In this document: positions 13,809 to 53,267 of the stretch, one piece after another
Layout: each line of letters opens with the position of its first letter
Position numbering within the stretch: position 1 is the first letter of the stretch
Assembly (NCBI GenBank): GCA_964030475.1
Contig: CAXIPT010000001.1
Span: 4,852,995-4,916,994, forward strand
Origin: Tethya wilhelma
Lineage: Eukaryota > Porifera > Demospongiae > Tethyida > Tethyidae
Direction: 5' to 3'
DNA: 64,000 nt
Notes under the pieces: generated by a model
The model's input: only the letters and a program-made list of their open reading frames with translations
Database searches by the model: none
What the model was told of the DNA's origin: nothing
Made by a program: the position numbers and the translations under genes

Positions 13809-15510
13809 ATGGAAACAGTATCTGCTGCTGTTAAGAAAGTACAGGTAGCTACAAGACGCAGAACTAGATCTACGAGCGGAAAGGTGACTTCCCAGGTAAA
13901 TTTGTACTTGTGGCCTGTTATAAGTGCTTGCTAATTTTCTTGTTTTTCACTGTTTGGTATATTTTAGCTGTGAAAATTGGTCTTAGCGCAAAAAGTTGTA
14001 ACTGATTATAGCTGTTTGTAGATCTAATTTTCTGTTTGGGTGGTAAAACATGAATATGTGCACTGTTGTGTAGGATACACAGAAAAGGAGGACAGTGAAG
14101 AGGACAAGAGCTATGCAAAGGCAACAAGTGACAGAGATAGTTACAGTAAGTTGCGTTAGGCGAAGTGTGTGTATGTGTGAATGCCTCTTCTCTAGTTGGC
14201 CATTGGATGTGACCTGTTTGGCCATCACGAGGCGCCTTTTCCTAGTCAAAGCCCGCCATTGGTTTCCCGCCTTGTGGTACCCCCTGCGCTGCAATGTTAA
14301 TTTACATACGTAACGTTGGGTGTGCTGAATATTTTATAGTCGTAGGCTTGTTTTTCAGCGGGCAAACTTGTGAATCGCCGTTCTTATTTTCTGATTATTT
14401 CATTCAAACCGCTCACACTTTGCAGATGAAAGAAAACACTGTCAAGATGCAAGAGTCAAGCACCACCAGTGGATTTCAACAACTGGTGCCTAAATTACAG
14501 CCAATCCATCTGGCCTGCAAGGAGAACTTGGTGGTACGCAGCTCTACAGTGAGGGAGAGAAAGCAACAGCCACTAACCCATGGGATATCAGCAGAGCTTG
14601 AAGTGAACAAAGATTGTATTCACTCATATGTTCCTTCTCCGGTGAATGAATTGTTTTCTGCATCTGCTCCGGACACCGGTGCCGTCTATGGCACATCATT
14701 TACTAGCAACACAAGTACCGGTCACAGCGCAGCAGTGTTTACTCTACCTCATCAGTCATCAAGCCTACACGTTCATAGGCAAGCTGCACTGGAGGGACAG
14801 TTGTTGCATGATCTAGCCGTACACTCAGGAAGTATGGGGACGTACTCTTCTCTTCCAAACCTTCAGTGGGTCGATTCTGGAGAGCTGTGGAGACAGATGA
14901 GATCGAAGGATGTCACAAAGACAGCACCTGAAACTGAACTGAGAAGTAGACATCCAGGGATTGCACCGAGTATGAGAGTCATACTGCTGGACTGGATGAT
15001 GGAAGTATGTACACGTGTGTGCTTTGTTCCTGCATGTTTAGTTCTTTTATGTGTTTATGTGTGCTTATGGGTTTGTATAACTAAACGTGTGTGTATATGG
15101 TGTGTGTGTGTGTGTGTGTAATATAGGGATCAAGAGTCCCTATATATCACTGTGTGATTTGCTTTGTTAGTAATATTATATTGTGCAAGTCTTTGTGAAT
15201 CTGTTGCGTTGTTACACATACCCTAAACCAACCTGCCTCAGTTTATCCATAACAATGTCATAGAATCAATTTTCAGTTATGAGGTTACTACTGTAATCAA
15301 CCTGCTAGTTTGTTTTCTAGTGCTCCCCTTTCACTGTCCTCATGGCTGCTCTGATGATCGATATGATCGCTGTGACCTTGTGTGTGTGTGGCATGTCAAA
15401 CATCCTGCTTGCATTTACTTAGCAGTATCAACTCTCCAACCACAGCTAAGAAGGGGTACTATGACTTGCTATCTAAAATAGTACCCTGAGCTTTATTACT
15501 GACTCTGTTG

Positions 15511-21944: not shown

Positions 21945-24900
21945 NTGTGTGTGTGTGTGTGTTTGTATAAAAGCATAATAACTATACAAACAAACTAACA
22001 CATACAAGGAATGAAATCAGCTCCTCCAATAGAACACAAAAAAGAACGGTCACTTCTTGCAAAGCCTTCAGTCATTATGACAATGGCTAAGCTGTTGTTA
22101 GCATCGGGCAGGGCCCTCAGTGAGACGTGGGGAGCTAACTCGTCCTCTCCTGGTGGTACGTAGAACCTGAACACTCGGCTTCCTGTGTAAGCCTTTCGCT
22201 TGCCAAACAAGAGTAGTTGATATGGCCCACTGGTGAGGTTCTTTGCATAGTAAGGACTCTCACCTGTTCATACATTGAAAAGCAAAGAAACATACAGTAA
22301 GAATTGAAACCATAGTGTTGGTTTTCTATAGTGCCCAATAAATAGTGGGGGGAAATTTTTGCTCTTGAAAACTGAGAAAGTAATAGGATGTATACATACT
22401 CCACCTCTTGACTTAATTAATGCATGGCACATGCAGACTCTAAACTATGTGGACTGGATACTGATCAGTACAATCAATAGCTATGTATGTGATGATAGTC
22501 CTATGTCCCTCACTCACATGCTGAGAGAGTAGGTGTGTCAGAATCACTTGACACTAGGAAGCAGTAGTACTGGGCATTGGTGCGCCCACTGGAAAATTCA
22601 AGCTCCACATCACCTCCTGGGAACTGAGACAATGTCCCATTCAATATCAGTGGCACTGTATGATCAGAGACAGAACAGACATAAAGATTTAACGGCCATA
22701 TGACAATCTCCTCACAAGGTAAAAATGAGAGTGCTATGATAAACCAATGTTGGCACTTCAGACTGATGTATTGATCTCAGGATTGTCTCGCTACAACAAC
22801 AATAACCAGGAATTAATCGTACACACTTGTACTTGTGAAATTGAAAAGGTGCCTATGTTACAACACGAGCATATATCACCATGTTACCAACAACACAATA
22901 AGCATGCAGTGAGCCACTCAGTAAGTATGCTGGTTAGCTGGCTAACTACATACATAGGTGCAAACACCCAAGCTAACTGAGAACACAATCCACTTCTCTT
23001 ACATGGTGTCTCTGTTGGAACAGTGGGGGCGAGTATAGATGTGACTGTTGGGACAACAGGAGTTGGTTGTATGAGATCCACACACTGGTACACAAAAGGA
23101 AGAACATTAAAGTACATATATATATATATATATAGTTAGTTCACAGAGAAAAATGAATTAATGGCTTATGCATGTATAGAGGAATGTAATAAGGGTCCTA
23201 ACCTCTGGTGGTGAGTCATTTATTGAACATCGGCACCTCAGTTGGTCAGTTGGCACTTCACATCTGCACTCTTCAGTCGTGCTCTCATCTTCATTCTCTT
23301 CCGATGAACACACACACTCCTCACACACTTGAGTGGGGAATAGTGGTACTATGTCGTGAACAGCAACAAATGCCTGTGCTACTGAATCCAAGATGCTGTG
23401 GTCTTCCAGAGCAAACAGCTGTATTGACCACGATGAACCTCCACTGTCCAGTGCAAGAGTGACATAATCTTGTATTGTCTGTCCTTCATTACTGGTATAA
23501 AGCACTTCTCCATTAGCTAATTCAAAGTCTTCGCCAGGTCTGACTATTGTAGCTCTACTGTAGCCATTCAGGCCTATTGCAGTGACAGAATTGGTTTCGT
23601 TTGGACGAAGACTGAAGTCTGCATCGACGATGGTATCGAGTGTGATGTTGCTCTCTTTCAGTTGGTCTAGCATGGACTCTCGAGTGAGAGCAGCTGCAGT
23701 TGATAGCGTACTCCTTCCTCTGTTGGTTACAATAATCACATGTTTGGCAATTTCTGGATCATCACGAAAAGGTGCCTGAGTTGCTGTGAAATTGAGAGCT
23801 TCATATCCATCAGCAATGTCACCGTTTCTCTTCAGCTGTCTCCTAGCCGTCACGAATTCAGACTCTGGGAAGAAAATATTTCCATTAACTAATAGGAACC
23901 GAGCAGTTAAAAATCTCCCACGAGATCCAAACTGCACCAGACAGTATCTGTTATTAGTCATGTTCCCCACACCATTGTTCTTGAGATGCCCTTCAAGTAG
24001 AGGAACAAAGTTCTGTGTCCACCGCTGAAAACCACTCATGGTGGTAGTAGCAGCAACTACAAAACAAACATCGACGGCTTTATATCCTTTAGTACGTGTG
24101 CCCAGTCTGTAGAGATGTTCGTCCACCTCAGGAAGAGTATCCTCTGTGGAGGAAAACAAGAGATTCAAATTCCATGCCCACTATTCATATTCACAATCAA
24201 TGCATATATAGTGCATGGATGAGCAATAATTTTGGTCATTAATTTTATAGCTGCAGTAAAGTAAAGTTAGAGGACTAGCCCCGATGGTAATGAACTGTAG
24301 CTGAAAATCTAATACAGACTATGCCTAAATATGACACTAAGAGGCAATAAATTATGATAATACATATTTCATGCAGCCTTTTCATAGGTAAATTTAATAT
24401 ATAAATCTCTAGAAAGACGAGTGAACAGACATCATAGCGTGAAACAATGATTGCTACATCGGTCTCATGACATTGCATGCATTCTCCCATTCATGTCAAT
24501 TTGGACTGTGTTGTACACATTGTGAGAGCAATAGGACAGCTCCATTCAACTGGTACACTTTCTCAAAAATGAATCTTTTTGATTTGAATCTATAATATTA
24601 CAGTCCTGATGCCATTAATGAAGCCCACCACCTTGTTTGTTTAACTTGTCACCTATTCAAGAGATGTTTAATTGTAGATCCTATTAAATGGATTGTATGC
24701 AGTTCTACATTATCAAAATTAATGCAGAGTCTACAGTTTGCGTGAAGAATCGAAGATAAGATGAAGCCATTTACCTAAAATTTCCGCCATAAATCTCTCA
24801 TCAATAATGATTCATTCCTAAGTCCTTGGAGTTGTGGCACTTCATTTTAGGTAGCTATATACTACTGTGACTATCATTGCAAATGTCAGACAGATGTTAC

Positions 24901-35906: not shown

Positions 35907-38900
35907 CTACATTTTGTCCATCTGTTCTCTGAGTTCATTGACGGCCCTGCGCAGTCGTCTCTCGTGCTCTGGAGATACAGTCTCCTTGAGCCACTTGGAG
36001 CACTGCTGCAGGATGGCATCTCTCTGAATCGTGAAATGAACAGGGATCAAGTCTTCAAAACCTGCATGTGTGTGTGTGTGTGTGTGCATGTAAGTGATAA
36101 GCAGAAGTCTTGGAGGCTTTACAAATTATGTTGATGTCCATTACCAGTTGGTGGATTCCTCAGCTGTTCGAGCATTGCATATCTCACTGTATACACCTGG
36201 ATATCAGCATTGTACTGTCTGCTACGAACCTACACATGTTTGAGCATAGACCACAGTCACATCATTCAAATGTAGCCAGCTGTCACATATGGAGAGCTTA
36301 TTTCTACCTTTCCTTCTTCTGTTCCTTGTATTCTCTCGTAGCCTGGTTCATTGAACATGGGGTCAGGGATGAAGATCATACCTTGAATAGAGAGGAGAAC
36401 CTAAGGTGGGAAGAGAGAGAGGGGGGGAAAGGAAGGGAAGGGAGGTACATAACATTATAGGAGACAATGTTTTGATGAAGTAATACCGACTTACCTGTAA
36501 CAGATTGGAACGGAGTGGATCCCATTTCTCAGTTGCATCTCCGCCATGCCAAGTCCCTAGCAAGCTCAGACACACTTTACCATCAGCGTACAAGTTGGGA
36601 TTGAATCTAATTGGCAGAAATTGATATCAATAATTAAAATGAATAAGTAATTCGATTTTCACTCAAAAATTTATGTCAAAAGATAAAAGATAAACTAATT
36701 ATAAAGAGCACGAGGTGAAATAATAATTCTTATAAATATTATAGTAAGGTGAACCTAAATTTTCACCTACTGTTGTGCATGCTCACATACAGTTTACCTC
36801 ACAGTACCACCTCCAGTGGTTGTCATGACTACCAACGGTGGATTGGTTGGGTAGGATGTGGGGTAATAGATATCAAACACAAAACAGCCCCTACTGTAGG
36901 GAGTATCTGTAGGACCAGTGATCAGCACACGCACCAAATCCATATGATCTTCATCCTATTATGTGCATGTATGTATGTATGTATGTATGTATGTATGTAT
37001 GGTATACCCTACAAGTTCACTCACTTGTCTTATGAATATTGCTGAGTCGGGATGAATGGCAGCCGACTCCTCCAGTTGCTTCATGTCCCTGAGGATGGCC
37101 TTTACCTTTGGTGATCGGGCATCGAGCGTGGCCTGGGCCTTGTCGGCCAGGGTGTGCACCTCCTCCAACTCAGCACTCTCGTACTTGGCCACCTCAAGGG
37201 CAGAGACGTACACATCCCTTAGGGCATCTTCATCGATTGTTTCAGAGTCGACAGCTTCCTGCCACTCCTCGTACCCAGAGGGCTGTTTGCCACCACCGCC
37301 ACCACGGGGGGAGGAAGAGGAGCCAGCAGCAGCTGGTGAGAGAGGGGTGGAGGGAGAGGAGACTGAGCTGGCAGTCTGAGATTGGATGAGCTCCACCTGT
37401 AGGATTAAGGAGAGGAGAGACCGAGATGAATCCATAATCACCACCATCTTATGACCATCATGTACACATAAGCTACTCAAGTCATAGAATCTAATGTCTT
37501 TCTACATCTATCACTCGTACACCTACAATAGTGTAATAGCGGGTAAATTTGGCAAGAAATAAACTTGGTGAATTGGCAAATTATTCTTCAAATCGCCAAA
37601 CAGTTTTATACGCACATGCACACATGCATGTAGAATTAAATTGTCAAATTTAAAATTGCCAAATCATGCTAAAATGGGAATTTGCCAAATTTTAAGCAGT
37701 ACACTGTATATCTTGTACCTGTTGCATCAAGCTTGTGTAGTCAGTGAAGACATCAGCTCCACCGAGCACCTGCTTCTGAAGCACAGAGCCACACTTTCTC
37801 ATCGTTTGAGTATCAAAGTCAGGATGAGTGGCCAAAGACATGAGAAATGTCTCTACTGATCCAGAGGAGCTTGCCTTGTCTTGCCTCCAGACACTCACCA
37901 TAATGGAAGCAATTTGCACAAGTAGTCTCTTTGGGTCGAAAGCATACTTGTCCATGTCTTTCACCTTCAGTTCTGAGGCCTTTGGACCACAGAGGGTGTC
38001 CAGGAAGCCAAGCATCTGATCACAATTGAGCAATATATGTGTGTGTGGGAGGGGGGAATAGAAATTATGGAGTAAAAATGTTGCAGAATTATAACCGAAT
38101 GGAACCTACAGCAGCAGCTGTTCTCTTTGCAAGAGGTGGCACACACAGACACTTGGCCACTTGCTCCGATTCAGACATTGTTGCCAGTAGTTCCATTTGC
38201 ATGTTAGCTTGAGTCATGAAACCTCTAGAAGCTTGTTGCTCTGAGGCAAGAAACGCCTCTTTCTCTCTTGCTTCTTTGTCACTGAGACCATTCCACTGAC
38301 CACCTGGAAAACAGTTTTGATAGCATGTGGTGACCCTTACCATTAAACTTAACCATACGTACTATCTTTGGCCGTTTCATACTTCCTGACATTCATGAGT
38401 CTTGATAGAGCATCATTCAACTGGTACAACAGGGTATCAAATATGGCTCCTAAATATGCCTACATAGCATGTGTCAATATAACCATACAGGGATGAGTTG
38501 AGGATATTGACATGGTTTATATTTCATTTTGCTCACCTGAAATTTTTTGCCTCCACATTCTTTAAGAATGGAATCTCTACAGTCAGGTCTGCTCCACAGT
38601 CGGTTCAGCAACTGGGCTATCTCAAATCTAGTACAAGCATAGACATACAGGAAGGATTTTCACAATCTCTTGACTTGTAACTTTCTTTCTCTTCCCTCCC
38701 ATTTTTTTCCTTCCAGCTCACCTTGTTGCATACTTATCAAAGTTCTCCTTGTCCACATCAAGACCTTCTACTACACTCACAGCTGCATAGGTATGCAACA
38801 GAGCTGGTCCCAGTTTATCTTGCACTGTGGGACTGGCTTGCACCATCACTGATAGCTCACCAAGGATACCACTGCAAGTGGATTGACATTACAATAATGT

Positions 38901-38978
38901 GTGCCATCATTATAGTGCTATTTGTGAAGCAAACCTTGCTTGATTTACTTACCCCCAGCCTTCAGATCTGAGCAACCT

Positions 38979-39011
<33 letters not shown>

Positions 39012-39012
39012 N

Positions 39013-39073
<61 letters not shown>

Positions 39074-42000
39074 CAGAAGCATGATATGGTGAGAACAGTG
39101 AGAGATTTAGGTCAGATTTAGGTCACATTGTAACCACTGTTCACTACACAGCACAGCATCTTGTGGCTGTGATACAGTTGTGGTTTTTATGGCCAATGTA
39201 CTGGTCAGACATGTGTCTACATGTGGCTGCATGTGTGTACACACAAACACACATGCACTGACCCTGCCTGTGGTCCTCTCTTGTCGCTATTGACAAAGGC
39301 CAGCAGTACAGAAACAATCCTACTCTGTGCAAGAGGACTGGGTAGAAGGTCAGGACGCTCCAAGAGGTTCACACAACAGTCAACAAACGGAATCAACTGC
39401 ATTGAAACACACCATGGAACCAGATGAACACTGCACACATGATTTATGTAGTTGCATACAATCCTTTATAGCAGATGAGGTACCCCATATGGGGTGCCTC
39501 ATCTGCTGAATCAGTGATAGGTACACACCACCAAATCCCATAGCAATATATGCAGTCAACATGACAAAAACCTTGCCAGCTAAGCAATGGTGGACTCATT
39601 TACAAGTGTGTATATAAAATGTATGTAAATATGTATGTATGTATGCATGATGTGTATTTATGTGTGTGCATGTGTGTTGTACCTCCTCTAGCCTACTACA
39701 AACCAACACACCTGCAATCCTTGCAAGAGTACTGGTTTACTCATCACCACAAATCTAAACCAAATGCACATATCCTTGACACAGTACTCAGGCACACTGG
39801 CCAACAGTCTTCTCTGCCTAGCACAGACCTCCTCCTCTGGCACACCATCCTAGTGTAGGACCACAAAGTAAACAAACACAATAACTAGATCTGATGCAAG
39901 TGATGATAATGCTGTGGAAATAACCCTGACATGCTCCCCATGTTGATTTCATCCTAAAAGTAAATTGTTATACTTCCCAGAGGAAATACTGTGGTGCAGC
40001 AAAGGGGGAGCCAGAGACACAGATATTATTACTGAATTGCCTATTTCATGATTAGAAGTCTTTGGACTGTGTGTGGCTTTGTAACTTGATTACTCTTCTA
40101 TTGATGCAACCAGAGGGGTCCACATTAATTTGCTTAAACATATGCCACTGGGCAAACCATGACCATGGAAACCACTGCACATACTTCTCTGCAGTCCTCC
40201 ATCTGCTTGGTGAGCCACACAGCTTGAGTGATGTAGAATTCACAGCAGTACTGCACAAACTGAGGGTCCATGAGGCAACAGGTAGAACACAACATGTACA
40301 ACTGGACAAGTAAATAAAAAAAACCAAAACATATGTACAAACCATTAACTTTTGATTTGCAAAACTTAATTTGGGTACTCACAGTGCTCAATTCCTTCAG
40401 CAGCTTTTCATTTCCACCTGATATCTTTGCCATGACTTGCTTGTTGAGGTCTGACATAGTCTGAGAGAAAACATTCACGGCTGTGATAAGACCCACGTGC
40501 AGGGCACGCTGTGTGATAAAAAAGCACTCTGTTACGAATTTGAACGGTGCAGTACCACCCGAGGCAGGAGACATCGATGGTGGTGATGGTGGTGGTTGGG
40601 GAAGAAATCTGCTGTGAGCTTGAGAGAGCCGAGACTCATTTCCTGTAATGAAGACATAAGGTGTGTGTTTGGTAACCTTGTAATTCTCACACACAATTAC
40701 ATGTTTACAAAATTAATTACAAATTACAACAGCTGGCACACAATCATCCGACCAACCAGGAGCTCATGGGCAACCTTGGGTTTAGGTACTCCAAGATGGT
40801 TTCCACAAGTACTCACCACAACCCCACAACAAGTACCCAACCAACCCTACCACACATGTCTCCCCATTCACCTCTTTCCCTCTCCATGCACCATAATCTC
40901 TTTGTCAGACTTGTAGGTATATAGGTTTCAAGAAAATTACCCCAAATGGTGAAGCAGGGAGAAGGGTTGGTAGGGGATCACACCTACCAATGATTCCGTG
41001 GGCCAGACACATTTCATTGTGAAGGTCCAGTCTGCACAGAGGTGAGTTTGGATATTTACTGCTGATGAGAGAGAGTTTTGGACCAGAGGGATGGTTGCTA
41101 AAGAAAGGCTTGCACAGTTCCAGTAGCACTGCACAGAAGTTCAGCATGAAGCCTGTATGAATGTTCACACAAAATTGGTAAAGAGAGAAATTGAATGTTG
41201 CTGTAGATTTGTGGCTAACCATCAGAACACACTCCCTCCATCTTCTCTCTCTTCTTAAACCTTGGGCCAGCTCTGAGCTCATTGAGAGACACCACTGCTG
41301 ACATCCACGCCAATACACTGCCCATGTGCCAGTGAATAGTACATGAGTGCACATGCATGACATTGTGTAAGCATGCACAACCCTTTAGGCAACAAATGTG
41401 CTTTACTTTGTTCTGTTGGGTGATTTTAGCATCTTGAGAAGTCCTGTGTGAACTGTCTTTTGACATCTGTGCAGTCCATCTTGGATATGTGTCTAAATAA
41501 CAAGGAAAATGAAAATCTGCTATCGTGGCTAAACAGCAAGCAACTAAGCAAAAACTAACCTCTGAAATTGAGTAAAATGGTAAAATTTTACACAAATACC
41601 TTTACCATAATTTGATCAACTAATATTCACACATTGGGGAAATATTTGTATGTGGTACTACATACGAAAATTAAACACTTGAAATTTTAATGAACCATTA
41701 CCAATGTATTGTATTAAATTAAAACGCAGTGAAAGTTAACATATAAAATATTTTTAATGCAAAAATATTTCAAACTAAGTAACAAAATATCAGTAGTACA
41801 GGGGACCTTACATGGCAGTTTATAGCATCCACCCAAGAGAAATTGGGGAAGTTCCTGAGTCCACAGAAGCAGCTGTACTTCTCGGCTCTCAACATGAGTG
41901 GGTGGAGCTTGCTGACTGGCACCATGGTGGTCACCGAAAAGAGACCAGCAAGAGCTGAGCTCTTCTCAAAGTACTCCCCCTATAATGTGAGCATGCAAAA

Positions 42001-42124
42001 AACACATCTGGTCATAATTTCACGGAGGAAATACAATGACTTTGGTTTTTTCACTACCAGTTTTTCGACTCCTTTCTTTACTTCATCCAACAAAGACTCG
42101 GATACAATTTCTGCAACTACAGGC

Positions 42125-42160
<36 letters not shown>

Positions 42161-43634
42161 TGTGTGCATGCGTGTGCGTGTGTGTTTGCCATAATTTGCC
42201 TACCCAAAGATTTTATTATAGTATTACACACTACGTCTTACATCAGAGAATAGAACATCAAGACCATCAAAAAGTTTTCCACACTTGACCAACACTTCGT
42301 CTGGTCTGCATAATTAATGGAAATAAAGATGCATAAATGCACAAGGTGTGCAGTAAACAACACACTACATCCCATTATTCCTCCCATTGCAATGAGCTTG
42401 CTCAGCACTCTACTCATAGCCTAGGCCTAGAGAGAGACAAGCTCAAACAAGCCAACAAACAGGTTTATGCTTGCCCAGGCTAGTGTGTTTAATGTGGTCT
42501 AATTAAGCAGCTCAATATTACTAATAGCCTGACCCTAGTATAAACAGTTCAAATGCCTGTGTGAGTGTATGTACATGGGGCATGTGTGTGTCTGAACTCA
42601 CTTCTCAACTCTCCTCACAAAGGAGCCAGCTGCCTTCACCTGTGGTGAGAGAAGTGGTTAGTGGAAGCCATCACAAGATCAACACAACACAAATCATGGG
42701 TTGGAGGCATGAGGCTTTGTATTCCAGCTGTAATTAGGTTTACCAATTCAACCAAATACTGGCTACTTTCAATTGCATAAGTAGCTATTATTGGTATAGT
42801 TTGATCACTCATTGTAGTGGTTCAAGGTAAAAATCCATTTTGCTATTCAAAGCTTCTGCACACAGCAACATGATTCATAAGCATACACAGTCTGGGTGTA
42901 TCTAAGGGAGTAAGACATTGCATTATTCAAACTGTCCAGCTGCAGCTGTTTTGGGAAGAAATCAATTTTTATGCCAATTAATCAATGTTCTCTAGCTCTT
43001 ATTGCAAGCCTTCCATTCCTAGCAGAATTTTTTTAGCTATCAGAGATCGATATAATAGTCTTTGTATCCATTTTGTTGGTAGGAATAATGGACAGCTGTT
43101 TATGTAAAGAGAAAGGATATGGCCCCAACCTTTCACTCATAAGCTGTAAGGTGGGACTAGGAGAACAAGTCAAAAGAGCTGCTGATGACCACACTGCTGC
43201 TTACTCAGCTAAGTGAAGACTAAATTATCTTCAAACATCTAATTGCACAAGCCACAATGTATTTTACGCAGCACACTTGGCTTTGCAAGTGCTGACTCTT
43301 GCAGCCTACTCCAGCCCACTAATAAAGTACTGAGGTCACAGTGGCCACTGGCTACAGCCACAGCAGACACACAAAGCAGATGGTAAAGCCACTTTGAAAA
43401 GGTGAAACCTGAACAGGGAGCCTAGTGACAGAGCTCAAGTAATGCTTCCTTGTTGATCTAATGTTTCAGCTCAATGATACCAATACTTCTGCTGTGGTCA
43501 GAGAGATTAAACCTGGCAAGTTCACTCTGGTCAGATAGACTGTTTGACTCACTGGATAGGAAGCATTTAATCATACTTAAACAGCCACCAACTGGTTGGG
43601 AAATCCTATCCCTTAATAGACAAATGCCTCCTTC

Positions 43635-43675
<41 letters not shown>

Positions 43676-45157
43676 CACAGCTGTGTATGTATTTATTCCT
43701 ATGTCAAGAAAATTATGCTTGATGTCACCGTCCTATGGTCTCATAGACACTTGCCATCTTTTGAAGAGGAAATGTGCTTTCGNTAACGAGTTGCACAATT
43801 GCTCTTTTCCCAACTGATGTTTTCTTGGCCATGACAGTCATTTTCTGGAGCATGGCAAGTGGCACCTGTATTCCATCCACTGACCATCCAGAGAGATGCT
43901 CGAGAAAAGATACCGCTATAGTCTTTAAAAAAAAAAAAAGAAAATGAAAACAGCTATATATAGTTCCTGTTGGTTTCTCTTTCAGTTTTAAAGAGGGAGC
44001 CTGGGAACATTGAGGCTAGAATATTTGTATAGTAGCGTTATCTAGAGTAGATAAAATAAATATTCTTGTGAGTGTGGTTGCTTACAGAGCTGTAATGGCC
44101 GCCAGCACCATACAGAGAAGACCACAAGTCATCTTCACCCTGTCTGGTGGCACCTGTGGTAACACAACAAAGAGACCTCAGTGAATGCAATTATATTGGT
44201 AGAGGAGGTGCAAAGCTCAGTTAGCTAGTGCAGCGTTCTTTGATTTGGCCATTGCCTGTTGGTTCTCCATTGAAGGAGTTAATAAACCACTATAAACCAC
44301 TCAATATTACATTCACTTTCAATGATAAATATTAACATTTCTAAAAGTAAACTTGACTATTAATTTTGTGAATCTATTTCACTTTCAACTCCTGTCAGTA
44401 CATCACACATATTTCAGAGTACCAAAATCGTTGCAAAAAAATAGCGACTTAGAACCCATCCTAGAGAGGCTAGCTGTATTTTGTTGAAATACCCTCCAAA
44501 AATTATCACTCCTTGACGGGAATATTCAGGATTCTACGTGGCTATTTTATCAACAAGCGGGTGTGTCTCATACGTATTGCTGATTGTTAAGTGGATAAGC
44601 ATTCTCACCAAAATTATGTATAGATATATAGGGACATCTTGATAATTAACAATAAGAAGTGGGTATGTTTGAGGGAAGCAAATTTTTGGTTATGTTGACA
44701 ATACTTTTTTCTTTACAGATTGAATTTTTCAAGGATTTGTTTTGCTCGCCATTGCCATAGTACTAAACAGTGAAATTTGCAGTTTTTATTTCCAAGGATT
44801 ACCTCCAAATCTGCAAAATCCACACAATTTGCTTCCTACAAAAAAAGTTTATGGTACATACTATCAATGAGTTGTTGAAGAGCAGTACTGGTTGCCACTT
44901 CTTGAGCGTACTGTGACAGGGGGGTCCACACTTGGAGACTCCAGGTGGAAGGGGGCAGCTGAGTGGCTCTATTGAAACAGCCAACACAGTACATGAGTGC
45001 ATCCTGTAGAGTAGACATTAAGAAAGCTAGAAGCAGTAGCTGTACATTGCATGGTCCACATAACTTGTTTGTGACCACTGACTACTATTTTGAAACCACA
45101 TTCAATGATATCATAGCTGGTCATATACTTATAGACATAGAAACACACACAAAGCAT

Positions 45158-45204
<47 letters not shown>

Positions 45205-45631
45205 AGCTCTCTTGATGAGCACCTCACAAAAAGTGACTGAAACTTCTTCACATCTCTCTCACTAACAGGAAGTTCTCCATCAACCACTCCCAACACTTTG
45301 TCCCCTCCAGCTCCACTAAAGACAGGAGGAGACACATTAGATGTGGCAACATCTTGAACAACCTTAAGAGGTAAAAAGAAGAGCAAGACGTGGGACTCAT
45401 TTCACCAAGAATATTGTTAGGGAGTAATTTTGACAAAACAGGTAGTGCTACAGTACATGCATTTTCACAGACTGAAAATGTATTGGCTACAAACAATTAA
45501 CTTACAACTTGTGTATCTAAAAGAAACTTCACAGCCTCAAGAGATGTTTCCTTCAAACCTAATGGCTTCTCTAAAAGTATAAGTGCACATACAAACGGAA
45601 TAGTATAAGTGGCAATGAATTATTAAAATTT

Positions 45632-45678
<47 letters not shown>

Positions 45679-45842
45679 CACAGCTGTGTATGTATTTATT
45701 CCTATGTCAAGAAAATTATGCTTGATGTCACCGTCCTATGGTCTCATAGACACTTGCCATCTTTTGAAGAGGAAATGTGCTTTCGTTTGGCCTGACTGGT
45801 TCCTTCTTCATCTCTACTGTGAACCTTTCCTTTGCTTGCCAT
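35907..45842 (-). CDS. UFD2/UBE4-type ubiquitin-chain factor with C-terminal BIRC6-like E2 (UBC) domain in place of the U-box
   Basis: Twenty-eight exons; phase agrees at every junction except across the gap at 43783. 5' to 3': 45842-45758, 45570-45506, 45362-45204, 45003-44862, 44153-44086, 43922-43784, [gap], 42639-42602, 42305-42242, 41979-41812, 41492-41407, 41317-41220, 41152-40988, 40642-40383, 40301-40185, 39849-39712, 39396-39263, 38979-38953, 38871-38722, 38627-38537, 38459-38363, 38303-38110, 38015-37719, 37396-37025, 36955-36798, 36606-36495, 36400-36308, 36229-36145, 36061-35907. About 1250 residues are visible. UFD2-core signatures: [52 protein letters not shown] and [20 protein letters not shown]. 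After a Ser/Pro/Gly linker comes an E2 fold: [48 protein letters not shown] (Cys codon 36572-36570), [12 protein letters not shown] and [11 protein letters not shown], closest to BIRC6. No U-box is seen. Intron 1 uses a GC donor. The alternative is two adjacent genes (UBE4 ending just after 37719; a UBC gene starting near 37450). Confidence 0.8.
37528..37708. mobile_element. MITE-like element in the linker intron of the UBE4-UBC gene
   Basis: The ends ATAGTGTAATAGC...AAATTTGGCA and (reverse complement) ACAGTGTACTGC...AAATTTGGCA are imperfect inverted repeats, related to the TACCGTATAGC family. It fills the intron between the last UFD2-core exon and the linker exon. Confidence 0.55.
38980..39072. 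repeat. (GT)n / N / (GA)n at an assembly gap
   Basis: A GT run, N at 39012, then a long GA run, all within a UBE4-UBC intron. The flanking exons (39396-39263 and 38979-38953) agree in phase. Confidence 0.85.
42640..43783. other. Gap-adjacent stretch of the UBE4-UBC gene with duplicated tail
   Basis: No exon was recognised from 42640 to the GT run at about 43637. From 43674 to 43782 the sequence is an exact copy of 45677-45785, including part of the gene's first exon, then N at 43783. One or more UFD2-core exons are therefore probably missing here. Confidence 0.75.
45677..45785. repeat. 109-bp segment duplicated at 43674-43782
   Basis: Identical downstream of two different (GT)n runs, with unlike sequence upstream of the runs. 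This is typical of an assembler jumping between microsatellites. The 45677-45785 copy is contiguous with the gene start and is taken as the true one. Confidence 0.8.
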
Positions 45843-46626: not shown

Positions 46627-49600
46627 ATGAGAGTGCACGGATGTGTGCTGCCGCTGGTTCTTGCTGTGACAATGCTACTTGCAGTCACTTCAGTTGTGCA
46701 GAGTTCCAATCGTAAGACTTAGTGCAAATTTTTATGACATTGTTGTATTTGTTGCTTTGTATACATGTATGAGGATTTATACGCGTATGATGTTGTCGGG
46801 TTGTGTTTTCGGCTCTCCTATTTTATGACAATTTGTATGATCATGAGTTATTATTGTGTTCAGTAAAGCCAAAAAATCATCTATATAATTATATAAGATT
46901 TATGACAATTGTATGATCATGGGTTATTGTGTTCAGTAAAGAAAAAAAATCATCTATAATAATTATATGCACTTCTTTCTGTCTTGAGATATTAGTTAGC
47001 ACTTTCCTGTTCTGGGCAATTGACACTTATCACCATTGCATACTTATTGTAGTACATGTAGACCATGTGTGTAATATTTGTGAACTAGCACCTTTTAGCA
47101 CCTTTGGTGCTTAGTAACCACATGCCAGAATAATTTTTAAAATATTGGGATTTTTTCCCCCCTGATCCTGGTAATTTTATGTATAAGCCTCAAATCCATC
47201 CGAAAGACACTATAGGTGCAACTAGTCTGGTGTACGTATCAAGATCTTTCCTCTGTGTGTGTGTGTGTGTGTGTGTATAAAGATCGACGCCATGTAAGCT
47301 TAAGGGTCGGGATATGCCAAACTAGGTGCAAAACAGGCCTTCGTATAAACCCACTGGTGTGAAAGCTTAGACAGTATTGGTTCGTAGTAACTGTTTTTTC
47401 TATCCCTAGCCAATGCAGTATTGACCAATCTGTGTAGAAAGAAGATTGTAGTTTTTTTTGGTCATCTTACCTATTTGAAAAGTCGCTCTAAGTTGTTCTA
47501 GCTTCAAGTTCAGATGGAATAACTTCATGTGCTCACTTACCTCAAAGGTAGGACTGTCTACATTCTCTGTATGAATCAAAACTGCTTCTAGCTGGTTTTC
47601 TGGAAGCCAGCACGAATCACCTGATTTTAGTTTTCGAAATTGACAAAAAAAAAAAAAAAAGACTCAAGACTAAATTCTAACTTCTCTTTACTTCAATTTT
47701 GCTATAAATAACTGGTAGTATAGACTTGCTATGGATGTAAACCTCTTCAAGTTTGCTTTATAAGTCAGATTTCTGCTTCTAGCTGGCTTTCTGGATGCAG
47801 GCCCAAAACGAGCCGATTTACGTTTTCGAAATTGACGACCCCTGACTTCTAAATACTTGGAACAAAAGAAAAAGGCGTGCATGCTGAGCAAGGATTTGCA
47901 CCATGTGTACCCTAGTTTAACGTTCTACTTATCTATCGGTTTTTTGTTCTTTTCAATAGTTGTGGCATATCGTGATGAGGATGTTCCAAGAGGGCTCCAA
48001 GATATTATTCCTGGAGATAGGTGCATCCTCTACTGCCGTGTTAAAACTAGCAATGGCAGACGGCTGTCCAATCCACCTCTAGTGAATTGGTTTCGTAAAA
48101 ACGATGAAGCAGAAAAAGCGGATGAAGCAATCTACGAACCTCTTAATGACTACATCTTGTCAACTCATTGGACTGGTGCTCACTCTCCCTCACCAAGAGA
48201 GTGCACAGAAAAAACAAACAGCCCAGGAAAATATATCTGTGATCTTGACCTGAAACCTTGCGACCTAAATCGCTTTAATGGCCTCTACAAATGTACGGTG
48301 ACATCACTGTTAAGCGGCTCAGAACTCTCCCAGGATTACCAGATAGATTATCCCCTTCGAGATCCCATCCCACCTCCCTGTTATATGCCTAGAGCTGAGA
48401 ATTTAACTGTTACTGAAACTGAATTCTCTGGCAGCAATTTTAGCGTTAGCTTCACTTGGGATGTTACAAAGAAGGGGACCAACGAGACCTACTGTGTAGG
48501 GAGCCGACGATGGGAAGTCAAGCATTCCAGTTCTCCAGATCCTGATTCTTTCAGTGACCGAGAGCCATCTCCTTCTTCTGGTGGTTTTATAGACCCTTCT
48601 GATCGGACCGACACAAGCTATGTCTTTCACAACTTGAGCCGCAGTCTCTACTACTTATTTGAAGTCAGAAATAGGAAGCTAAAGCATCAAAGAACAGCAG
48701 ACAGTGATGAGTACTTCACCTATGCTTCCAATGTCTACTATTTTGGTGAACAAAGTAAGACTAGGCTGGCTACCTTGAGTCTTACATACATCTACATTTT
48801 TTGTGTTTATTTTCTCCACAGTTCAACCATATATCGATATACCTCGCAATGATCGGACTGTACAGCGGGTTGCCGAAGGGGGTATACTCTCACTGTCCTG
48901 TTTAGCTGTAGGAAAACCCCTCATCCCCACAGTAACGTTCCGTGCACCGAGGGAAGATGGCCTTGCATCCCGCACACTCTCGTCACCACCTAGTCAAAAT
49001 GGTTTGGCTCATCTATTGTTAGTGGATGTGAAGCCAAGTGATGCGGGAGAGTATGTCTGCAGACTAGAATCAACAGTGTTGCACCCGAAACGGTCTTTCG
49101 TTCGGAAGAAGAGATACATAGTGATCGTTGAATCTCGTAAGTGAAATTGGTGAACCCCCAAAATCAATACAGAAAAATTGCAAGATTTATCTTATTTCTA
49201 AGTAAAATAGAATGTTTATGATCTGATTTTTTAATTTTTTTTTTCCTTTCTTCCCTCCAGGTGGAAACCAAAGTGCAGTACCTACAACTGGACAGTAAGT
49301 GGCTTGCTACTAGAGCTCCTGCAAGTGGCTTATCATTTAGAATCTCTGTGGCTGCTAGGAAGCCAACCATCTGTATATTGTGTTACCCACAAGACCATCT
49401 GCTAGAAACCACTAAGTCCCTTCAGCACTTCCTGTTTGCATGGTTACTGTGTTGTCACTCTCTATAATAATGCATGCACCAACTTGCAGGAGGTGTGGCT
49501 CATTGACCCAATCGACTTGTGGCTCTTACATCTTGGACTCAATAGATGTCTTCTTTAACACAAGTGAAGATCACAGCAACAATGACTTGAAGGGTCAAGC

Positions 49601-50718
49601 CGAGGCATTGCAGAGCACCATCCGAACATTGCGCCACAACGACACCAACAGCAAGTGTATCTCCTTCTTGGAAGCTGTGATGTGCCACACACTCTTCCCC
49701 TACTGTGATCGTACCACGGGTACACTGACTCCAAGACCCATCTGCAAGTCCACCTGCGATGCCTTCTACCCGGGGGGTCCTTGTGGTCACCTCTTCAGAG
49801 ACAATCCTAACCTCTTTCATGCTCTTTCGGCTAACTGTGACACGAGAGTGAATCCAGCTGGCTCAACACCTGAGTGTATCCATATCTCTGTGGACTTTCC
49901 CATCAATGGTAGGTATGGTACAAGAACATGGCATTGTGTGATCTCTTCAAAAGAATGTTTGACCATTACTAAGGGAATAAAACTTTTATAATTGGCTACA
50001 TCTGTTTGACCTAACATTATAGCTACTCCTGGGTGCTTTATTTATGCACACACTCCACTGCACACAATCACAGTTATGGAGAGAGTTGAACAGAAATGGT
50101 GCAGTAAAGGCGATGGAAGAGGCTACCACGGTGCGATATCACACACTCGCAATGGTCATCAGTGCCAGTCATGGTCGTACATGGACCCTCACTCCCACCC
50201 TCTCAGTAGTAACGAGTTCCCCTGGGAGCTGCCCACTGCTGGTCACTATTGTCGGAACCCCGGTGGTCTCGGAGAACAGCCGTGGTGCTACACCACCAAC
50301 ACTTCAGTCAGATGGGACTACTGTGATGTGCCTCAGTGTGGTAAGTCCCGGCCCTTCAGTGTGTGGCTTGAGACAGTGAGGGTACTCTAAGCTAGATCAA
50401 TGTGAGAAATTTTGCTGTCATTGTCAGGGCCAGTGTATTGTTTCAGTGGTTACTTTTTTGGGCTTTGCATGTTGTTTTCTGTGTAGATGTGTGTGAAGTT
50501 TATTCTGGTGAATTTTGTCGTGAGCTTCCATCGTACAACACTACTACTGCTGGTGTTCTTTATGAACGGGAGAACCAACAAGATTTCTATGTTGATGTCG
50601 TCGAGTTACAAATGAAGGAGATGTTTGAAGAATTTGGTGGGCCTGATCTAGCAAGAGGTTGTCAGCTGGCGCTGAAACAGCTGCTGTGCCACAATTCTGT
50701 TCCCATTTGCAAGATGCA

Positions 50719-50759
<41 letters not shown>

Positions 50760-53267
50760 CCTAAAACTGCAATCATCCCCCCCCCCCCCCNAGGTGAGAG
50801 AGAGAGAGAGAGAGAGAGAGAACCTAAAACTGCAATCATTCCCCCCCTCTGTAACATATAGTTGACCCTGCCCCAAAAAATGTCTGTTCTGAACATTGTC
50901 GTCTTGTGGAAGTGCTTAATCACTGCCTTGAAGCTGATGTTATTGAGGACCTGAAGAATAGCAAGCTCACTCTTCCAAGCTGTCCTGGAGAACCAGAAGC
51001 TGACAGAGATCTAGATTGTCTACCTTCACCAATAAGGATTCCACCTCCACGAGGCAGTAAGTTCAAGGATTGAGTGATTGTGTGTGTGGTTTCCTGTTGC
51101 CCAATGATTTCACAGAGCTCTGTAACCTTGTATTCAAATCTTTAACCACCAACGGCCCTTGTCTCATTTGGCATTTTCATTGTTCACTGTGAATTTAACC
51201 TCCAGCCTTCTTTCCCTATGCCTACCACTGGGATGGCTATTACTACATGTGGCTAGCTTTACTATGCATGGTGGCTGACATGGGTTATGGTGGGTTGCCT
51301 ACACGTTGTGGTTTTACATGGCCACTCAGCTTATCTCTGAGCTTGTGTAGTGTTCCCAGAATGTCAGATTACGGAGACCCAAGATGCATGCTATTCTACC
51401 TGAGTGACTGTCTTCCCCCAAAGTTTGACATTGTGCTCATCTCACATCCTCACAGATTCAACAGGAGACTGCTATTTTGCTTCTGACTATGGACACAGTT
51501 ATGCAGGCAATGTTTCGACCACTGCATCTGGCCTCACTTGCCTCAACTGGGACTTCAATGGCACTCGTACACCTTTTTTCAACTTGACGGAGTACCCAGA
51601 GCTGATAGAGAACTATTGTCGTAATCCGGGCCAGGTGTTGAATAGGCCATGGTGCTATACTGGCAACAGTCCAGTGACCTGGGATTTCTGTGACTTGCTC
51701 TCCTGCAATGAATCTAGTAAGTTTGAGTGCTAGTGTTGTCTGTCATTATCCATTGAGAATTTCTGCAGTGACCGTTTGTATTGTGAGAATTTTTTGTAGT
51801 ATTGGTGTATGTAGTCACTTTTGATCGCTCACACACACACACACACACACACACTCACGCACAGAATCTGATTCTGAACTACAGTCCACAATGACTACAA
51901 CTACTATGGTGCCTCATCATGGCATCAACAATGTCGTAATACCCATTGTCGTGACCCTAGTCGTAGGTCTTGCAATTCTAATCATCGTAGTATTAATTAG
52001 TAACTTTGTATGCCTAATGTTTCGAAAAAAAGCCAACAAGTTGAAGTCTTTGAACAATCCTGAGTCACCAACTCTCCAACAGTATCGCATTGATAGTGGG
52101 CAGTCGGAGATCAAGTTCACTTTCAACGAGCAGTACGTGCTCACACAAGCAGCTGTATCAAAAGTCACTGAAGCCATCAAGAGTTTCCAACAATACGATA
52201 GGAAGGACATTAAGTATGTGAAGCAAATCGGCCAGGGGAACTTCGGTATTGTATACCTCGGCAAAATGACTCTGGCCCTCGAAGAAGGTGAAGAAAAGGA
52301 GGAGACTCAAGTGGCAGTGAAGACGCTCAAAGAGGAAGCAGCACATGAATGTCTTGAGGAGTTTGTTCGTGAAGCAAAGATCATGATGAGTTTCGATCAT
52401 CCGAACATCATCAAGTTGTACGGCGTCATGATGCAGGAGCTGCCGTATTGCCTCATCTTCGAATACATGAATCGTGGTGATCTGGCCAATTTCCTTCGGG
52501 AAAACGCCAGCAGTGCCCTACGTCGTTTCATGAGCTGTGACAGACCTCGCTCGCGGACCGAATCAACCCTTTCCGACAATCCCCCGTCACTCAACAGCGA
52601 TCAACTGACCGACATTTGCAAGCAGGTTGCTGCTGGTATGGAGTACCTGTCGATGCTCAATCACGTTCATCGTGACTTGGCCTGTCGGAATTGCCTGGTG
52701 AAGGTGGAGGAGACGATGGACAACGAGGGCGAGGTCACCTCCCTCGGGAACGTCACCATCAAGATCGGTGACTTCGGGATGAGCCACAACCTGTACACGC
52801 AAAATTACTATCGTGTCCGTGGCCAGGCCATTTTGCCCGTCCGATGGATGGCACCCGAGTCCATCATCTACGGCAAGTTTACCACTGCTGCTGATGTGTG
52901 GTCATTTGGAGTGGTGATGTGGGAGGTGTTCTCCTTCGGGCTCCAGCCCTACTACGGAATGTCAAACGACGAGGTGACAGATAAAGTGAGACGAGGAAAG
53001 AATCTGTCACAGCCCGCCGACTGTCCGAGGAAGATCTTCCAGATCATGAAGGATTGCTGGAAGATGGATCAGAATCTCAGACCCACTTTTACCGAGCTGC
53101 ACAACATTCTAAATGAAGCTCGTTCAAGCATCAGTTCATATTCTGATGATGCAAGTTCTTGCCGTTCTTCGCCTGCACCTTCTGAGCAAGCCTCTGAGTT
53201 CAGCGATGATGCCTTTCTGGAGGAGAACTCCATTCTTAATTTCAAAGTGGAGGATTCAACTGTTTGA
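46627..53267 (+). CDS. ROR/MuSK-like receptor tyrosine kinase with doubled Fz-kringle cassette
   Basis: Single-pass receptor kinase, 1335 residues, ten exons in phase: 46627-46711, 47960-48754, 48822-49136, 49261-49294, 49490-49908, 50074-50340, 50487-50720, 50862-51056, 51456-51716 and 51865-53267. Domains in order: signal peptide; Cys-containing Ig-like region and a FnIII-like region (exon 2); Ig domain with LSCLAVG...DAGEYVC (exon 3); Fz-type Cys-rich domain (exon 5); kringle ending GEQPWCYTTNTSVRWDYCDV (exon 6); second Fz-type domain (exons 7-8); second kringle ending RPWCYTGNSPVTWDFCDLL (exon 9); transmembrane helix VIPIVVTLVVGLAILIIVVL; kinase. The kinase has GQGNFG, VAVKTLK, VHRDLACRNCLVK, DFG, ILPVRWMAPESI and SFGLQPYYGMS, so it should be active; the last motifs are ROR/MuSK-like. 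The kinase exon is large and the tail is Ser-rich. An intronic gap (N at 50791) does not disturb phase. Confidence 0.92.
50721..50861. repeat. (GT)n, C-run, N, (GA)n at an assembly gap
   Basis: A roughly 24-bp sequence (GAACCTAAAACTGCAATCAT) occurs on both sides of N at 50791, showing overlapping contig ends. The GT run starts at the splice donor itself. Confidence 0.85.

Follow-up and report, generated by a model that had tools for sequence, protein, structure and literature searches.

UFD2 defined the concept of the E4, a scaffold whose U-box borrows a ubiquitin-conjugating enzyme (E2). A gene in a 64,000-nt stretch of the genome of the demosponge Tethya wilhelma (the window; assembly GCA_964030475.1, contig CAXIPT010000001.1, positions 4,852,995-4,916,994, forward strand) raises the question of whether such a scaffold may carry an E2 of its own. 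An earlier reading of the DNA alone (the sequence-only reading) had proposed an E4-E2 hybrid, in which a UFD2/UBE4-type core and a BIRC6-like UBC domain share one frame without a U-box. Pfam matches, comparison with the PDB and 84 relatives bore out this architecture, and the gene is referred to here as UFD2core-UBC. From sequence comparison and predicted folds we propose, with a probability of about 0.7, that its product is a single-chain E4 (chain extender) carrying its own E2.

Structure and domains of the UFD2core-UBC gene

The gene was rebuilt base by base as a coding sequence of 3819 nt with one terminal stop, no internal stop and no N. All introns but one (27/28) are GT-AG; intron 1 is GC-AG (donor after 45758). 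The features are as follows.

35907..45842, minus strand: UFD2core-UBC gene, start to stop codon; 29 exons, 1272 amino acids (aa); blastp match to the relative P0001 end to end
45842-45758, 45570-45506, 45362-45204, 45003-44862, 44153-44086, 43922-43788, minus strand: exons 1-6, N-terminal part (N part), residues 1-218, without a Pfam family
42639-42602, 42305-42242, 42123-42058, 41979-41812, 41492-41407, 41317-41220, 41152-40988, 40642-40383, 40301-40185, minus strand: exons 7-15, UFD2 core
39849-39712, 39396-39263, 38979-38953, 38871-38722, 38627-38537, 38459-38363, 38303-38110, 38015-37719, minus strand: exons 16-23, UFD2 core
37719..42639, minus strand: exons 7-23 overall; Ufd2P_core E 1.1e-89, yeast Ufd2 E 3.4e-18
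37397..37718, minus strand: core/linker junction intron, 322 bp; phase 0, GT-AG, no AATAAA or ATTAAA
37025..37396, minus strand: exon 24; core end (VELIQ...), Ser/Pro/Gly linker, conserved pre-UBC segment and UBC start, assigned by alignment across the junction
36798..36955, minus strand: exon 25, UBC
36495..36606, minus strand: exon 26, UBC with the FNPN and GKVCLS active-site segment
36570..36572, minus strand: catalytic Cys codon TGT, residue 1137; Cys in 84/84 fusion relatives
36308..36400, minus strand: exon 27, UBC
36145..36229, minus strand: exon 28, C-terminal part of the BIRC6-type UBC
35907..36061, minus strand: exon 29, C-terminal helices and stop codon, no U-box
43637..43783, no strand: single N (43783) and an exact 146-bp copy of 45785-45640, inside intron 6 (43787-42640) and outside the coding sequence

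The source of the 146-bp copy (45640-45785) comprises the end of exon 1 and the intron sequence that follows. The N and the copy in intron 6 are probably an assembly artefact, arising from a misjoin or from gap filling.

Pfam matched Ufd2P_core to residues 328-950 of the window protein (110-732 of its 1054-aa C part), covering positions 35-628 of the 628-position profile, and UQ_con to residues 1055-1176 (837-958 of the C part; E 1.3e-20). A UEV match (PF05743, E 7.5e-5) was weak and under the gathering score, and PF00179 fitted better. Beyond these three, no Pfam family, BIR included, was found in the C part or in the N part, which was scanned with one extra residue. Within the PDB the core was nearest to yeast Ufd2; the UBC, which is of the BIRC6 type and spans about residues 1040-1272, was nearest to BIRC6 (E 8.7e-72), followed by UBE2O (about 1e-40) and UBE2Z (about 1e-30). 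Its catalytic Cys codon lies where the sequence-only reading had placed it. As that reading had also claimed, no U-box was detected: Pfam found no PF04564 in the window protein, and tblastn of the 64-kb window with the U-boxes of UBE4A, UBE4B and PUB1 (all typed by hand) and of P0203 gave a best E of 0.53.

The core also carries a motif of its own, EGLDVDK at residue 708, encoded by the exon 38871-38722. A GLDVD-like motif was present in 75/84 fusion rows, in contrast to 0/120 canonical rows and 0/36 non-fusion rows, and its two Asp were invariant in alignments A1 and A3, the former of which included P0121 and P0122, both core only.

Relatives, integrity and age of the fusion

Relatives were sought with the linker and UBC as the query, within a length gate of 0.55-1.75 times the 1054-aa C part. 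Scores were obtained for 7991 proteins, 945 passed E 0.001, and the counts given here rest on the best 120 of the 945. Precomputed domains placed PF10408 and PF00179 together in 84 of these 120 and PF04564 in none of them, and so in none of the 84 fusion relatives. The active-site Cys was retained in all 84, and the N, P, N, C, W and H of the active-site region were invariant or nearly so in the alignments. The window protein falls within this lineage by its domain order, its Cys, the absence of a U-box, and the grouping of both its UBC and its core with those of the fusions. Three of the matches listed, P0001-P0003, were nearest, with 70-73% identity to the linker and UBC region. Blastp crossed the junction, aligning C-part residues 1-1052 with P0001 225-1266, and identity to P0001 was 45% over the N part and 65% over the rest. 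The 1054-aa C part was 38% identical to P0018 (Nematostella) and 42% identical to P0006 (Liolophura).

The sequence-only reading had suggested a search of sponge and early-metazoan proteomes; two-domain proteins were indeed found there, but the architecture proved much wider. Among the matches listed, the named fusion rows comprise a sponge (Dysidea avara), cnidarians (Porites, Actinia, Nematostella, Oculina), molluscs (Liolophura, Batillaria, Nucella, Babylonia, Patella, Littorina, Haliotis, Gigantopelta), three lancelet rows (Branchiostoma), the brachiopod Lingula, the annelid Owenia, green algae (Myrmecia, Trebouxia, Bryopsis, Scenedesmus, Elliptochloris, Nannochloris, Sanguina and, by label, Ulva), the chytrid Gaertneriomyces and the haptophyte Calcidiscus. 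Four of these lineages were checked, and the remaining higher groupings are presumed. This spread, from animals to green algae, a chytrid and a haptophyte, suggests that the joined protein is an ancient part of the protein-disposal machinery that has been overlooked. Among the best 120 of 945, both domains occurred together in no row named as a vertebrate, insect, yeast or land plant, which suggests that the fusion is absent outside the groups listed; a vertebrate orthologue, if any, would be expected to rank near the lancelet rows. A UBC without a UFD2 core is found in a nematode row (P0070) and in a land-plant row (P0033). In viral contigs, 75 stretches matched the A1 pattern and none was confirmed as a relative by tblastn, and viral origin or spread was rejected.

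These relatives bear on whether the core and the UBC belong to one gene. The sequence-only reading had seen its weak point in two adjacent genes, a truncated UFD2 ending past 37719 and a small BIRC6-like E2 starting near 37435. Of the two signals behind this concern, the in-frame ATG before exon 24 is present near 37435, and so is the read-through stop, but at the 9th codon beyond the 37719 donor and not 11 codons past it. Neither was seen in the relatives aligned across the junction, all of which are continuous there. The existence of 84 two-domain relatives refutes the two-gene model. The sponge-like relatives P0001-P0003 are each a single open reading frame, of 1268 aa on a contig of 3924 nt, 1282 aa on 4803 nt and 1269 aa on 4320 nt; such cDNA-sized contigs would represent spliced RNA because an intron-bearing gene could not fill them with one open reading frame. 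Furthermore, core homology spans the junction (37719/37396; residues 948/949): in relatives and in canonical UBE4s the final core helix runs across it, with LMQQ/VELIQ in the window protein facing LAEK/VEEI of UBE4B (typed by hand). The phase 0 join, its good donor and acceptor and the absence of an N between the two exons were as previously described; the minus strand of the intron (37718-37397) lacks AATAAA, as claimed, and also ATTAAA, and has one TATAAA at 37610. Two genes are thus highly improbable. That the model missed a U-box exon, or that local misassembly removed one, could be argued from the single Ns in the assembly and the 146-bp duplicate in intron 6, but given the U-box search of the window and the 84 relatives without PF04564, we give this next to no credence. 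The two-gene model, a skipped U-box exon and an assembly chimera were rejected on the basis of the 84 relatives, the junction alignment and the U-box tblastn.

To place the UBC, three trees were built. For the quick tree (97 rows and the window protein), 20 fusion rows had been removed as near-duplicates or partial sequences, along with 3 non-fusion rows lacking the active-site pattern; one branch with a support of 58 split its 98 rows into 65 fusion and 33 non-fusion. The first careful tree held 60 chosen rows and the window protein, omitted the deep fusion rows P0065, P0077 and P0119, and separated 36 fusion from 25 non-fusion rows with a support of 96/87. With those three rows, P0112 and six more non-fusion rows added (70 rows and the window protein), the second careful tree separated 40 fusion from 31 non-fusion rows at 96/79, and the split was found in 96% of 200 bootstrap trees. 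The UBC trees favour a single origin of the fusion.

The core tree contained 52 rows, 46 of the fusion lineage (P0121 and P0124 lack a UBC in probably incomplete models) and 6 canonical, namely human UBE4A (typed), P0125, two further UBE4A, and human UBE4B and Arabidopsis PUB1 (both likewise typed by hand). The search for canonical rows listed the best 120 of 341, in which the named ones were vertebrate UBE4A; a search with the P0003 core, which listed 27 proteins, did not reach canonical UBE4s. In this unrooted tree with its small canonical sample, a branch of 99 parted the 46 rows from the 6, and plant PUB1 grouped with the animal UBE4s and not with the green-algal fusions. The earlier assignment to the UFD2 family is therefore apt for the type of core, but the core lies outside the U-box UBE4A/UBE4B/PUB1 rows, across the 99 branch, so that 'sister lineage of UBE4' would describe it better than a UBE4 from which the U-box was lost recently. 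A group that includes the named green algae appeared in the second careful UBC tree (14 rows, 100/97) and in the core tree (17 rows, 98), as did an animal group (12 rows, 99/93, and 18 rows, 100). The outside rows, which differ between the trees, joined beside the same protist group (P0042/P0044/P0055/P0057) in both, which is the pattern expected of one ancestral fusion. Most simply, the fusion would have arisen once, before green algae and animals parted, and then been inherited vertically with later losses.

Putative mechanism, N-termini and alternatives

The U-box at the head of Ufd2 brings in an E2 already loaded with ubiquitin. Loops close to the opposite end bind K29-linked chains, and K48-linked ubiquitins are added, yielding the branched chains needed for endoplasmic reticulum (ER)-associated degradation (PMC5303827). 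AlphaFold2 models of two distant fusion members (predicted template-modelling score, pTM, of 0.90 and 0.92) placed the UBC at the U-box position of Ufd2, and the predicted fold of P0005 superposes on Ufd2 263-880. BIRC6-type E2 kin function without a separate RING. In a single-chain E4, E1 would charge Cys1137 of the C-terminal UBC with ubiquitin, and the elongated helical core would hold a client already bearing ubiquitin, as Ufd2 does. The UBC, predicted to dock at the scaffold end that bears the E2-recruiting U-box in Ufd2, would then transfer ubiquitin directly onto the client or its chain, with no RING or U-box.

The N-termini may connect this activity to membranes. In the 22 rows of at least 1400 aa among P0006-P0031 (rows with animal names or, where unnamed, ranking alongside these), a hydrophobic 19-residue segment started within the first 200 residues in 20 and lay beyond residue 40 in 19. 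An EF-hand match above the Pfam gathering score was found in P0124, which from its id prefix we take to be Sycon, a calcareous sponge; this row has a UFD2 core and an EF-hand pair (residues 69-128), and its model ends before any UBC. Our reading of animal-type N-termini, from sequence patterns, is a signal peptide, a lumenal EF-hand and a single transmembrane segment, such that in many animal forms the hydrophobic segment would probably be a secretory-pathway membrane anchor. The demosponge form in the window appears to be without this anchor and EF-hand part: no 19-residue stretch above a Kyte-Doolittle value of 1.22 starts in its first 282 residues, in-frame stops lie upstream of its ATG, and a tblastn search of the window with residues 1-330 of five relatives had no match below E 0.4. 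An extra N-terminal exon without detectable similarity may exist. P0001-P0003 likewise have neither a hydrophobic N-terminal segment nor a UIM-like match, and the chytrid row P0048 begins with a hydrophobic segment. A UIM-like pattern occurred in 12/84 fusion rows, none of them a named animal, and is N-terminal in several green-algal members; Pfam UIM matches in P0043 and P0050 (E 7e-4 in the latter) were at or just under the gathering score. In P0043, a protist-like fusion, the UIM (residues 632-648) precedes the segment that matches the UFD2 core and is perhaps an insert within the core.

Several observations weigh against a single-chain E4 or against the history and topology suggested for it. 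The pTM is a global score, and rigid docking of the UBC is deduced from the models; identity of the core to Ufd2 is low, at about 20%. The chain-binding loops of yeast Ufd2 (51-55 and 105-110; PMC5303827) lie outside the part aligned here, so that chain binding by the fusion core is putative and the client side is the weakest step of the mechanism. Three of the 22 long animal-type rows lack a hydrophobic segment beyond residue 40, only 8 match a strict EF-hand pattern, and the EF-hand Pfam matches of P0006 and P0018 are under the gathering score. As for the trees, the UBC split at 96/79 is below the star of the program and fell from 96/87 once the deep rows were added, with 58 in the quick tree. 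The trees are unrooted, so that U-box UBE4s or free E2s may be nested within the fusion group; several rows are long-branched, the core tree program warns of long branches, and the canonical rows in that tree are few (6).

Two other activities would be compatible with one gene. In the main rival reading, the protein may be an E2/E3 hybrid of the BIRC6/UBE2O sort, in which the core would serve as a client platform and the UBC would add a first ubiquitin without chain extension. This would agree with the UBCs of BIRC6 and UBE2O being the closest known E2s, which PDB records name dual E2/E3 or E3-independent E2, and with the position of the Ufd2 chain-binding loops outside the alignment. The scaffold, however, is that of an E4, complete to its last helix, and the N-terminal UIM-like motifs of several green-algal members, which bind ubiquitin, fit clients that already bear it; we consider the hybrid unlikely. 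A catalytically silent, UEV-like scaffold, whose UBC would bind ubiquitin or E1 without conjugating, could be argued from the weak PF05743 match, yet the universal Cys, the near-invariant active-site residues and the better match to PF00179 make it very unlikely.

If the single-chain E4 is correct, the protein would be a self-contained extender for which E1, ubiquitin and ATP should suffice, and the placement of E2, chain and client by Ufd2 would become directly testable in one polypeptide. The forms with N-terminal hydrophobic segments would point to ER quality control. More tentatively, and as a possibility rather than an expectation, a second UFD2 lineage with its E2 in cis may have arisen in or near the last eukaryotic common ancestor and may be mostly a type I membrane protein in the animals that have it, where a lumenal EF-hand could link lumenal calcium, or the state of the ER, to chain extension in the cytosol on clients that exit the ER; its putative loss from vertebrates, insects, yeasts and land plants would explain why it went unnoticed. 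Should the lineage date from early eukaryotes, the account of UFD2 proteins as U-box ligases would be incomplete.

Elsewhere in the window, 49416-53267 (plus strand), perhaps from 47836, encodes an Fz domain (E 4.6e-8) and then a tyrosine kinase (E 6.3e-94) in a candidate single gene, presumably a receptor tyrosine kinase of the ROR/MuSK type. An open frame at 14246-15121 (plus strand) with Cyclin_N (E 5.5e-7) marks a cyclin gene. A 340-aa open frame at 23158-24180 (minus strand) is von Willebrand A-like by eye and had no Pfam match at E 0.01.

Comparison with known systems

The sequence-only reading knew of no described UFD2-UBC protein, and none was found in the literature searched here, the coverage of which stops short of preprints and most subscription papers. 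In the accessible portions of a survey of animal U-box ligases (Marin 2010; PMC3087547), Ufd2 relatives have a C-terminal U-box, both UBE4A/B genes are reported in sponges, and the word 'UBC' was not found. Likewise, 'Ufd2' was not found in the accessible portions of a survey of eukaryotic ubiquitin systems (PMC4327156), nor 'Ufd2' or 'UBE4' in those of a 2024 review (PMC11354881). A Biomphalaria survey lists one sequence as ufd-2, in which it detected no domain but Ufd2P_core, and takes it as U-box-linked (PMC6548493). Fusion sequences are deposited in databases under names such as 'E4 A-like', 'E4 B-like' and 'uncharacterized', and such names alone are no sign of description.

The window protein shares Ufd2P_core, to the end of the profile, with the UFD2/UBE4 proteins (yeast Ufd2, human UBE4A and UBE4B, Arabidopsis PUB1), ligases that elongate chains on clients and bind Cdc48 and Rad23/Dsk2. 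In contrast to these, the fusion proteins have a UBC in place of the C-terminal U-box, and their cores lie across the 99 branch and bear the GLDVD motif unseen in the 120 canonical rows. With BIRC6 (BRUCE/Apollon) it shares a BIRC6-type UBC with the catalytic Cys, but it is far shorter, lacks a BIR and joins its UBC to a UFD2 core, and the fusion UBCs group apart. The UBC of UBE2O is more distant than that of BIRC6 and is borne on a different body. The anatomy of the fusion would fit an E2/E3 hybrid like these two, in which an active E2 shares one chain with a client-binding body and needs no RING or U-box. Animal members of the fusion lineage such as P0018 (Nematostella) and P0006 (Liolophura), which databases list as uncharacterised, show the same order of core and then UBC, but have a longer N-terminus with hydrophobic segments and an EF-hand-like motif, not found in the window gene. 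UFD2core-UBC joins two known kinds of protein and is itself neither a UBE4, having no U-box, nor a BIRC6, having no BIR.

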